From Paracoccaceae bacterium (lineage in GTDB: Bacteria > Pseudomonadota > Alphaproteobacteria > Rhodobacterales > Rhodobacteraceae), in the NCBI GenBank assembly GCA_030066905.1, contig JASJAR010000003.1:124001-188000 (forward strand): 64,000 nt of DNA, written 5' to 3'. The notes under the pieces are model-generated. The model searched no databases. It was not told the origin of the DNA and saw only the letters and a program-made list of their open reading frames with translations. Below, piece after piece: positions 19,877 through 61,931 of the stretch (position 1 is its first letter; each line of letters opens with the position of its first letter). The translations under genes and the position numbers were made by a program.

Positions 19877-19919
19877 TGCCATACGAAAAGCCGACAGGTT
19901 GCCATACGTTTTGCAGACA
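19877..19919 (+). promoter_or_regulatory. Array of about 11-bp-spaced TGCCATACG-type repeats ahead of chorismate mutase-rpsP
   Basis: Units begin at 19877 (TGCCATACG), 19889 (AGCCGACAG, degenerate), 19900 (TGCCATACG) and 19911 (TTGCAGACA), with spacings of 12, 11 and 11 bases. The same order of units, ending in ACGTTTTGCAGACA, lies upstream of rplQ (52637-52678) in the same orientation relative to the downstream gene. Helical spacing of direct repeats is typical of OmpR/PhoB-type regulators; the factor is unknown. Confidence 0.65.
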
Positions 19920-19947
19920 CCGGTTTCGACCGTTCGGAGGCCCGCCG

Positions 19948-52116: not shown

Positions 52117-52539
52117 TTACTCCTCGGCGAGCGACCCTTCGGCCTCGAGACGAGCGCGGTCGGCGGCGCCCTTGGCGCTCTCGTCGCGCTCGACAAGTTC
52201 CACAATGGCCATCGGCGCCATGTCGCCGTAGCGGAAGCCGGCCTTGAGAACGCGCACGTACCCACCGGAGCGTTCGGCATAACGGGGCCCGAGCACGTCG
52301 AAGAGCTTGGCGACATGGGCGTCCTGCTTCAGCCGCGACGCGGCCTGGCGGCGGGCGTGAAGATCACCGCGTTTTCCGAGGGTTATGAGCTTGTCGACAA
52401 CGCGCTTGAGCTCCTTGGCCTTCGGCAGCGTCGTCTTGATCTGTTCGTGTTCGATGAGCGAGCCGGCCATGTTGGCGAACATCGCCTTACGATGCTCATG
52501 GGTACGGTTCAGGCGGCGATAGCCGCGGGCGTGACGCAT
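52117..52539 (-). CDS. rplQ: 50S ribosomal protein L17
   Basis: A 140-residue protein. [20 protein letters not shown] is the invariant start, and [26 protein letters not shown] the conserved C-terminal core. A 15-residue acidic tail extends beyond the E. coli protein. It is separated from rpoA by 150 bases rather than the usual short gap, and this gap holds an array of four 11-bp repeats. It probably has its own promoter as well as read-through from rpoA. Confidence 0.98.
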
Positions 52540-52636
52540 CAGTCTTACTCCTTCGGCCCTCTACGGGCGGTTTTGCTTTGTCCGGGGGGCCATGCGTGCG
52601 GCCCCCTCACCTTGGGGCGGAATGCCCGGTTTGCGA

Positions 52637-52678
52637 TGTCTGCAAAACGTCTGGCACGTGTATGGCAGACGTATGGCA
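52637..52678 (-). promoter_or_regulatory. Array of four exactly 11-bp-spaced TGCCATACG repeats upstream of rplQ
   Basis: On the minus strand, units begin at 52678 (TGCCATACG), 52667 (TGCCATACA), 52656 (TGCCAGACG) and 52645 (TTGCAGACA), each exactly 11 bases apart. The closely related array before chorismate mutase-rpsP (19877-19919) ends with the same ACGTTTTGCAGACA. The array starts 12 bases past the rpoA stop and ends 98 bases before rplQ. Confidence 0.7.
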
Positions 52679-52689
52679 GCCTTTCGGGA

Positions 52690-53706
52690 CTAGAACTGGT
52701 CCTCGAACTTCTTCGCAAGATCCTCGATGTTCTCCGGCGGCCATTCCTCGACATCCATGCCAAGGTGGAGGCCCATGCCCGAAAGCACTTCCTTGATCTC
52801 ATTGAGCGACTTCCGCCCGAAGTTCGGCGTCCGCAGCATCTCGGCTTCCGTCTTCTGGATTAGATCGCCGATATAGACGATATTGTCGTTCTTCAGGCAG
52901 TTCGCCGAGCGCACCGAAAGCTCCAGCTCGTCGACCTTCTTCAGAAGGAGCGGGTTGAACTCGAGCCCGTCGTCCTCGGTCTCGGCCCGCGCCGATTCCG
53001 GCTCTTCGAAGTTCACAAAGATCGAAAGCTGGTCCTGGATGATCCGCGCAGCATAGGCCACCGCATCGTCGGGGCTGACAGAACCGTCGGTTTCGAGCTT
53101 CAGCGTCAGCTTGTCGTAGTCGAGCACCTGACCCTCCCGGGTCGGCTGGACGTCGTAGCTCACCTTCTTCACCGGCGAATAGATCGCATCGACCGGGATC
53201 AGCCCGATGGGCGCGTCTTCGGGCCGGTTCTTGTCGGCCGCCACATAGCCCTTGCCGGTGCTCACCGAAAGCTCGATGAAGAGGTCCGCCCCCTCGTCGA
53301 GATGGCAGATCACGTGGTCCTTGTTGAGGATCTCGATGCCGGCCGATTCGGAGATATCGCCGGCGGTCACCACCTGCGGACCCTTGGCCGAGATCGACAG
53401 CCGCTTCGGCCCTTCGACCTCCATCCGGATCGCCACGCCCTTGAGGTTCAGAACCACATCGGTGACGTCTTCCCGGACGCCGGCAATCGACGAAAACTCG
53501 TGCAGCACGTTGTCGATCTGGACGCTGGTGATCGCCGCACCCTGAAGCGAGCTCATCAGCACCCGGCGGAGCGCATTGCCAAGCGTCAGCCCGAAACCAC
53601 GTTCGAGCGGCTCGGCGACAACCGTCGCCTGGCGCGAGGGGTCGTTGCCGGGCTTCACCTCAAGCTGCGTCGGCTTGATGAGTTCCTGCCAGTTCTTATG
53701 GATCAT
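52690..53706 (-). CDS. rpoA: RNA polymerase alpha subunit
   Basis: A 338-residue protein. The N-terminal assembly domain contains [26 protein letters not shown] and the C-terminal domain [45 protein letters not shown], which contacts UP elements and activators. The start is ATG 53706; an open frame continues upstream to 53868, but the conserved [12 protein letters not shown] begins here and GGAG lies just before it. It follows rpsK after 118 bases. Confidence 0.98.
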
Positions 53707-54846: not shown

Positions 54847-55173
54847 TCAGATGAGGTCGTCCACCGTTACGCTCAAGGCATCTGCCAACTTCGCCAACGT
54901 GGCAACCGAACCGGTCTTTCTTCCGGCCTCGATATCGGCGATCTGCACGCGATTGACGCCAGATGTCCGGGCCAGCGCGCTCTGGCTCAACCCCCGCCAG
55001 TCGCGGAAGACCGCAAGAGGGGCGTCCCCATCAAGGAGCCTATCCATGTACCGCGCAGGCAGGCCCTCGCCCGCCTCGGAGACCGCCCTGTCGTACGCCT
55101 GGATGTCGGCCAGGTCTTCGCGCGCGGCCAAGAGTGCTTCGTACTCGGCACGGGATATCGTCACGGTGTCCAT
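54847..55173 (-). CDS. XRE-family antitoxin
   Basis: A 108-residue protein. The C-terminal half is a Cro/C1-type HTH: FRDWRGLSQSALARTSGVNRVQIADIEAGRKTGSVATLAKLADALSV. The N-terminal half (TVTISRAEYEALLAAREDLADI...) is a helical segment that probably wraps the toxin and resembles Phd/RelB-like necks fused to HTH. It follows the toxin after nine bases, so the order is toxin first, as in higBA-type modules. It likely represses from the repeats at 55441. Confidence 0.88.
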   Translation of the reverse strand: MDTVTISRAEYEALLAAREDLADIQAYDRAVSEAGEGLPARYMDRLLDGDAPLAVFRDWRGLSQSALARTSGVNRVQIADIEAGRKTGSVATLAKLADALSVTVDDLI

Positions 55174-55182
55174 GTCACTGTC

Positions 55183-55431
55183 TCACTCATAAGCCTCACC
55201 TCTTGGGGCAATGCGCAGGATGTCGAGGACTTCCGCATCGCGCATGATAACCCGCCAGTCGCCGACCCGAAGCCGAACACCATCCCTGCCCTTTGGCGCT
55301 TTGACGTTGTTGGCCTGCGAGGCGGGGTCGGCAGCATAGGCATTTATCTTGTCGCGGATACGCCACGCCGTGTTGCGGGGCATTCGCCGCAGAGCCTTCA
55401 CCGCCTGGGGTTGGTAGACGACCGACTTCAC
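55183..55431 (-). CDS. RelE/ParE-family toxin
   Basis: An 82-residue basic protein with the RelE fold: YQPQAVKALRRMPRNTAWRIRDKINAYAADP, KAPKGRDGVRLRVGDWRVIMRDAEVLDILRIAPRGEAYE. Such toxins cut mRNA on the ribosome. RLRVGDWRVIM matches the core strand of the family. The start is GTG 55431: a stop lies five codons upstream in frame and no ribosome-binding site is visible, so it may be leaderless. It forms a module with the XRE antitoxin, placed between adk and rpsM. Confidence 0.87.
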   Translation of the reverse strand: MKSVVYQPQAVKALRRMPRNTAWRIRDKINAYAADPASQANNVKAPKGRDGVRLRVGDWRVIMRDAEVLDILRIAPRGEAYE

Positions 55432-61625: not shown

Positions 61626-61931
61626 TTACCAGCTCGACTTGACCATGCCGGGCACCTGGCCGTTCGAGCCGAGGTCGCGAAGCGCGATCCGGCTGACTTT
61701 CAGCTTCCGGTAATAGGCGTGGGGACGCCCGGTGAGCTGGCAGCGGTTGTGGAGCCGGGTGGGCGAGGAGTTGCGGGGCAGTTTCGCCAGTTTCAGGCGC
61801 GCCTTGAACCGCTCTTCCATCGGCTTTGTTTCATCGTTCGCGATTTCCTTCAGCGCAGCCCGCTTGGCGGCGTACTTCTCCACCAGCTTCTGGCGCTTCA
61901 CTTCGCGTTCGACCATTGCTTTCTTTGCCAT
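61626..61931 (-). CDS. rpsN: 30S ribosomal protein S14 (zinc-free type)
   Basis: A 101-residue protein. [20 protein letters not shown] and the C-terminal [39 protein letters not shown] are standard. It is the long, zinc-free form: the CxxC pairs of the short S14 are missing. It lies 11 bases after rplE. Confidence 0.98.

Follow-up and report, generated by a model that had tools for sequence, protein, structure and literature searches.

Dispersed arrays of 11-bp direct repeats, one of them between rpoA and rplQ, and a solo BrnA-type ribbon-helix-helix protein as their probable binder in Rhodobacteraceae

The window, by which we mean the whole 64,000-nucleotide stretch of DNA analysed here, carries a short array of direct repeats in the gap between two genes, rpoA and rplQ, that are transcribed in the same direction. 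The relevant features are as follows.

52637..52678, minus strand: array of four 11-bp units in the rpoA-rplQ gap, three of them of the type TGCCAKACR and the last TTGCAGACA
52690..53706, minus strand: rpoA, with 11 bp from its stop codon to the array (the first unit starts 12 bases past the stop)
52117..52539, minus strand: rplQ, with 97 bp from the array to its start codon

Read on the minus strand the units are TGCCATACG (52678-52670), TGCCATACA (52667-52659), TGCCAGACG (52656-52648) and TTGCAGACA (52645-52637), with an exact step of 11 bases, and these coordinates bear out the original prediction of four direct repeats spaced 11 bp apart on the strand of rplQ. Tandem Repeats Finder reports 2.9 copies with a period of 11 and a score of 36. 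A two-unit pattern allowing up to three mismatches has four matches in the window, where shuffled sequence predicts 0.36; three fall within the rpoA-rplQ array and the fourth is part of a second array at 19900, and the TGCCAKACGTTTTGCAGACA pattern has two matches in the window against 0.00 expected. The gap, which had been described as far longer than usual, turns out to be ordinary: it is 150 bp long, compared with a median of 138 bp (range 93-254) in the 73 of 80 relatives in which it could be measured by script, and it reaches 150 bp or more in 29 of the 73. An Rfam search of the rpoA-rplQ region returned only one chance match (E = 2), far under its cut-off.

Two other features of this part of the window deserve mention. 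The stretch from the array to rplQ (52540-52628, minus strand), which reads CCCCAAGGAGAG...CACGCA...CGGACAAAGCAAAA, is conserved in 25 aligned sequences (the window and 24 of 80 relatives) and contains a hairpin in which seven of the eight predicted pairs have changes on both sides; it has no Rfam match and is a candidate structured leader of rplQ. Within the ribosomal-protein cluster, in the rpsM/adk interval, there is also a two-gene toxin-antitoxin-like pair (54847-55431, minus strand), assigned by sight as an HTH protein and a RelE-like protein.

The repeats between rpoA and rplQ are one member of a set of arrays scattered over the genome, and not an operator belonging to rplQ only. Searched against the whole genome, the TGCCAKACGTTTTGCAGACA pattern has 29 matches with up to three mismatches, and the two-unit pattern TGCCAKACRNNTGCCAKACR has 50 with up to two; the reversed control has none in either search. 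After merging of these matches there are at least 27 arrays, two of them inside the window, and the number is a lower bound, with two-unit matches at C14:28696, C41:38071 and C47:17939 left out of the examined set. Control specific to rplQ, as originally proposed, does not survive this result, the gap array being one of at least 27 sites in the genome; the other half of that proposal, a dedicated factor acting on 11-bp direct repeats, is an inference that is well supported. The 27 examined arrays have three to five units each (four or five in 22 of them), and the steps between units are 11 bp in 61 of 82 cases and 12 bp in 18. A typical array runs TGCCATACG - TGCCATACG or AAGCCGACA - TGCCATACG - TTGCAGACA, often then CCGGTTTC, and the second array of the window has this form.

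19877..19919, plus strand: second array of the window, TGCCATACG / AAGCCGACA / TGCCATACG / TTGCAGACA, with spacings of 11, 12 and 11
19920..19927, plus strand: trailer CCGGTTTC, directly 3' of the second array

This second array has a GNAT-like gene on one side and a chorismate-mutase-like gene on the other (both named by sight). A trailer of the form (C/G)(C/G)GTTT recurs 3' of arrays in three lineages with different units, following 8 of 27 arrays in the source genome, 12 of 38 in Puniceibacterium sediminis and 32 of 56 rows in Silicimonas (the 56 include one array twice, as L099 and L259), as opposed to 3, 0 and 3 occurrences, respectively, in front of the array. It is missing at the 52637-52678 array.

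The architecture of four 11-bp units is also present in other Rhodobacteraceae, with differing units that include CCATACG, ACCGACG, GTGCAT, GCATGAAC and others. Among 110 rpoA-rplQ gaps (the window and 109 relatives, which contain at least one genome twice, as L003 and L090), seven have a clear period-11 array with scores of 3.9-4.7 of 6 (the window, L099, L096, L124, L126, L028 and L085), and L121 is weaker at 3.4; no period from 8 to 14 other than 11 scores above 3.5 in these gaps. Conservation in relatives, which the original prediction had put forward as a check, is thus seen for the architecture, in the gap of six of 109 relatives plus the weaker seventh, and the unit sequence differs, the relatives' gaps containing ACCGACG, GGGACGGATGC, CCATACG, TGCATCG, CATATGG and GTGCACG. 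Over 355 kb of rpoA-rplQ loci all six period-11 scores of 3.7 or more fall in the rpoA-rplQ gap; other periods reach that score 0-11 times (most often period 9, with 11 against 6 for period 11), and at 4.4 or more period 11 occurs three times and other periods not at all.

The abundance of each unit follows the lineage. Pairs of CCATACG have 205 matches in P. sediminis (control 0), 16 in the source genome and 0-1 in nine others, and pairs of ATACCGACG have 173 in a Silicimonas MAG (control 0) and 0-2 in six others, the reversed control of the latter search matching 24 times in P. sediminis, where the genome's own arrays look like that reversed pattern. Exact CCATACG pairs were found family-wide in 22 of 394 genomes with 1 to 166 matches each, of which single matches may be chance, since there were six control matches over the 394 genomes. 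Among the 20 further positive genomes the rpoA-rplQ array is clear in G177 (87 matches) and decayed in G072, and no array was seen by eye in the gap of the remaining ones (G138 from raw sequence only). We note that seven rpoA-rplQ gaps (L095, L107, L123, L129, L148, L154 and L324) have GC-rich inverted repeats at the array's place, carrying GTAGGGTG or its complement CACCCTAC, and these look like another dispersed repeat.

Closer comparisons are possible within the genus of P. sediminis, in which two of five species have the CCATACG motif (166 and 86 exact matches) and three are without it. Twenty arrays were sampled in G427, the second motif-bearing species; nine of them have a counterpart among 38 sampled P. 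sediminis arrays (from an estimated 60-70, at about three of the 205 matches per array) with matching orientation and a matching adjacent gene or gene pair, six with both flanking genes matched and three with one. Genes flanking P. sediminis arrays match genes flanking G427 arrays in 10 of 40 cases, against 1 of 344 for other genes (P = 5e-10), and at the nine shared sites identity is 92% in the cores, 73% in the spacers and 77% in the flanks, which are partly coding. The three sister species without the motif have no clear array in the rpoA-rplQ gap; at the array's place in one of them (L382, from G430) lies GCCGTTTTGCTGCCGTTTGGCAGCGAAAC, possibly a decayed or differently coded array. Some positions appear by inspection to be common to genera, namely rpoA-rplQ, serC-serA (identified by sight) in the source genome, Silicimonas and G237, the end of an ABC-transporter ATPase gene in the source genome, P. 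sediminis, G427 and Silicimonas, and the end of gapR in P. sediminis and Silicimonas. The corresponding counts across genera are not significant (3 of 40 against 8 of 344, P = 0.096; 1 of 40 against 1 of 344, P = 0.20), and give no more than a hint that arrays may keep their positions at this distance.

A motif-free scan for period 11 over 400 kb of P. sediminis recovered exactly the 20 known arrays and nothing else, and at scores of 3.7 or more in the same 400 kb there are 19 for period 9 against 20 for period 11; over 400 kb from G003, G013, G034 and G035, which represent four other genera, the period-11 scan gave one weak match, in G034. Nineteen of the 20 P. sediminis arrays are intergenic, with genes called by our own small script. 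Arrays flagged inside called ORFs number 7 of 27 in the source genome, 1 of 38 in P. sediminis and 2 of 56 in Silicimonas, and the placement figures for the source genome should be read with caution, as several of the flagged ORFs are large and look spurious. In the 400 kb of P. sediminis, arrays occupy 13 tandem gaps, 5 convergent ones and a single divergent one, classes that account for 53, 19 and 27% of gap length, respectively, and all sampled arrays with both neighbours called are distributed (tandem, convergent, divergent) as 25, 8 and 4 in P. sediminis, 26, 15 and 11 in Silicimonas, and 12, 7 and 8 in the source genome. Because of these gap-type counts we regard the arrays as intergenic but not bound to promoters, and a promoter-type regulator, which was our first idea, was dropped after the count. 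Two further observations concern the surroundings of individual arrays. In the Silicimonas arrays L190-L290 T-tracts occur about every 10 bp in the 0-40 bp past the last unit, which suggests phased bending, and L220 and L271 show an array at the 3' end of a gene that encodes a GapR-like nucleoid protein in P. sediminis and, with other units, at that of the related gene in Silicimonas.

Among the genes adjoining arrays, the source genome and P. sediminis have one pair in common that is found on the same side of the array in both and encodes a BrnA-type ribbon-helix-helix protein.

G000:C2:61354-61749, minus strand, outside the window: BrnA-type gene of the source genome, with a four-unit array at 61827-61868

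The proteins of the source genome and P. sediminis score 58.5 and 49.5 bits, respectively, against Pfam BrnA_antitoxin (PF14384; gathering cut-off 26.1), and those of other genomes were identified by profile search. A search of 25 genomes found the gene in 20 at an E of 0.001 or better, and in 13 of them the best period-11 score upstream reaches at least 3.7. G428, G429, G430, G034 and G019 yielded no match for the gene. The first three of these are also without the CCATACG motif (G430 is 78% complete), and G034 has one weak array match in 100 kb. In the genus of P. sediminis, the gene is therefore present in both motif-bearing species and was not found in the three motif-free ones (one of them the 78% complete genome), which were searched for CCATACG only, plus any array in the rpoA-rplQ gap. 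G019, a MAG that is 91% complete, has an array in the rpoA-rplQ gap yet no gene match, and in G003, G013 and G035, which do have the gene, a 100-kb sample of each contained no array, so that few arrays can suffice. The units of G063, G064 and G065 were first known from the rpoA-rplQ gap, and the same core is found upstream of the gene; the gene-upstream array of G065 is one 11-mer repeated four times, identical to two of the four gap units.

In a profile search across the family, 66 of 198 genomes had the gene at an E of 1e-12 or better. In 20 genomes picked by the gene (those new among the 30 best loci), a period-11 array scoring 3.7 or more lies within 330 bp upstream in 10, and in none of the 20 does a different period between 8 and 14 score that high upstream. 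Several of the 10 genomes under 3.7 have an array visible by eye, and G176, G137 and G016 have none upstream of the gene, even by eye. Over all 40 genomes examined, a period-11 array of 3.7 or more is present upstream in 23, against 2 for other periods. A forward prediction was also made from the gene-upstream unit of G023, GCATGAACNNN, which with up to two mismatches has 74 matches in that genome, none in the control and 0-5 in 19 other genomes. Because several lines, including this forward prediction, point to the gene, we consider its product the candidate binder.

The candidate is a protein of about 110-176 amino acids (19 aligned), whose relatives are named 'BrnA antitoxin family protein' or DUF4415 in public records; among the best 120 of 843 public matches the organism names, where given, are mostly from Rhodobacteraceae, e.g. 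Paracoccus and Tabrizicola. No BrnT gene was seen beside it among the called neighbours of 11 loci viewed by sight, nor in seven neighbour proteins scanned with Pfam, and a HigB-like toxin gene and one for an HTH protein adjoin it in the source genome. An AlphaFold monomer model (mean pLDDT 71.5) has helices at 68-75 and 81-129 after the strand region and no strand. Foldseek with this model gave no PDB match, and a PDB sequence search gave only a chance match to tyrosyl-tRNA synthetase (E = 0.62).

Ribbon-helix-helix proteins read bases through alternate residues of a paired beta-strand. The third position of the predicted strand is Lys with CCATAC, CCAGAC and CCGAC units and Arg with TGCA and TGTA units (12:1 against 0:12), as in the strands RTKVTINLD of P. 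sediminis and RTRVTIALD of G032. Residue and unit agree in 24 of 25 scored genomes, with G065 the sole exception (Fisher P = 2.7e-6, uncorrected for relatedness, with unit classes that were defined after seeing the data and in which spacer bases count). The 25 are drawn from the 40 genomes, 15 having been dropped for a low array score, a residue other than Lys or Arg, or a tie; for G023 the script took the wrong stretch, and the true strand also has Arg. When 33 of the 40 proteins are placed on a tree built with the strand masked, nine Lys/Arg changes are required (mean of 11.4 with shuffled labels), at least four of them forced by supported branches, and with such repeated changes common descent alone does not explain the match between residue and unit. 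Sister contrasts that agree with the rule are G162/G107, G003/G013, G080/G100+G427, G229/G082+G177 and G124/G207+G223, where the arrays of G003, G013 and G124 are low-scoring and were judged by eye, and the joins of G080 and G124 are not on starred branches.

Several known systems resemble this one in part. The protein has the same DNA-binding domain, well over the Pfam cut-off, as the BrnA antitoxins (PF14384) of BrnTA modules, but no BrnT is present among the neighbours viewed, and the unit occurs dozens of times in several genomes. For comparison, in TASmania 99.88% of the two-gene modules of one BrnA cluster pair it with a single BrnT cluster (PMC6504116). Tandem direct repeats of fixed period upstream of the protein's own gene (in 23 of 40 genomes) are a likeness to ParR/parC and omega/parS; however, unlike plasmid centromeres, the arrays are short, at 3-7 units, and the richer genomes each contain tens of them, and unlike partition systems, there is no motor gene beside the protein gene in the loci viewed (genes within 1.5 kb). 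The repeat unit of R1 parC is 11 bp long, and ParR has a ribbon-helix-helix fold. ParR and omega are small dimeric proteins that bind repeat arrays and additionally repress the operon encoding them; omega and ParG-type proteins are of the ribbon-helix-helix class, and R1 parC has ten direct repeats (PMC5016525). Intergenic direct repeats have also been reported in marine Beggiatoaceae, where one genome has 169 sets of TAACTGA heptamers, some in ribosomal-protein operons, without a known binder (PMC4679880); those repeats are 7 bp long, have a single fixed sequence and mostly sit closely upstream of start codons in forward orientation, whereas the arrays here have 11-bp units with a core that varies by lineage and occur in all gap types. 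Titles and the opening parts of abstracts in the open-licence literature on intergenic or REP-like 11-bp repeats (Rhodobacteraceae, alphaproteobacteria), orphan BrnA and ribbon-helix-helix iterons contain no description of such arrays among the matches listed.

On the genome comparisons above, we think it quite probable that the arrays are cooperative binding sites of the solo BrnA-type ribbon-helix-helix protein, which has an array upstream of its own gene and would form a protein patch at gene boundaries. One dimer would occupy each 11-bp unit, with neighbouring dimers packed next to one another in head-to-tail order along the array, in the dimer-per-unit manner of MetJ, omega or ParR complexes, and three to five units would make a stable patch. 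At its own gene's array the protein would repress its own gene, and a patch between rpoA and rplQ may slow or block RNA polymerase, such that the output of rplQ could differ from that of rpoA; the position of the arrays is what suggests this block at gene boundaries. The predicted target sequence has likely been rewritten from genus to genus.

Other explanations are less probable to differing degrees. The original prediction had the repeats bound by a response regulator of the OmpR/PhoB type, in which case the arrays would be operators at nearby promoters. The Pho box of PhoB has a 7-bp core and a 4-bp spacer with an 11-bp period, and the 11-bp direct repeats, with the 7-bp core and often A/T-rich 4-bp spacer of P. 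sediminis, resemble it; nevertheless, the core, the placement and the associated gene differ, there is no promoter excess (one of 19 P. sediminis arrays is in a divergent gap, a class making up 27% of gap length, and five are in convergent gaps), and the gene that tracks the arrays encodes a ribbon-helix-helix protein. A factor binding with an 11-bp period thus stands as a well-supported deduction, an OmpR/PhoB identity is very improbable, and the factor is most likely the solo BrnA-type protein. A role at the RNA level, in which an sRNA or RNA-binding protein recognises the repeats in untranslated regions, would suit the many arrays between codirectional genes, but the arrays occur in both orientations relative to their neighbours and in convergent gaps as well, their spacing holds to a helical period of 11 bp and they go with a predicted DNA-binding protein, and we consider this reading very improbable.

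The lineage-specific sequence, the intergenic spread and the existence of relatives without the motif would also be expected of dispersed selfish elements of the REP/MITE kind, multiplying by copying and serving no function in the cell. The copies, however, have the units and a short trailer in common (and in Silicimonas phased T-tracts), and not the flanks, as judged by eye and by per-position consensus; at shared sites conservation is higher in the cores than in the spacers and flanks, nine of 20 sampled arrays are in the same gap and orientation in two species, and the unit matches a residue of the protein, all of which make a purely selfish origin improbable. The chief rival to a patch at gene boundaries is chromosome marking or folding. 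On this view the arrays would be sites of the centromere or nucleoid type, at which the protein labels and organises the chromosome much as ParR or omega act on plasmids, with any gene control being secondary. Placement independent of promoters and the T-tracts about 10 bp apart after Silicimonas arrays are consistent with it, and centromere binding by ribbon-helix-helix proteins at repeat arrays is known (PMC5016525), but some genomes seem to have very few arrays, and we regard this account as somewhat unlikely.

Beyond the binding of the arrays by the solo BrnA-type protein, we speculate, tentatively and short of calling it probable, that an antitoxin fold without its toxin has become a chromosome-wide address system, coating dozens of centromere-like arrays of 4 x 11 bp at gene boundaries, with protein and arrays switching their recognition sequence together in each lineage in what would amount to a readable protein-DNA code. 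If this is true, a family labelled as antitoxin in databases would be a genome-wide DNA-binding system, and the gene would reveal the binding sequence for each genome. It would also provide a natural experiment: a DNA-binding protein and its dozens of sites would have changed specificity in step many times, opening the way such rewiring happens to direct testing, and rpoA and rplQ, usually treated as one unit, would hold a protein-bound patch between them in several lineages.
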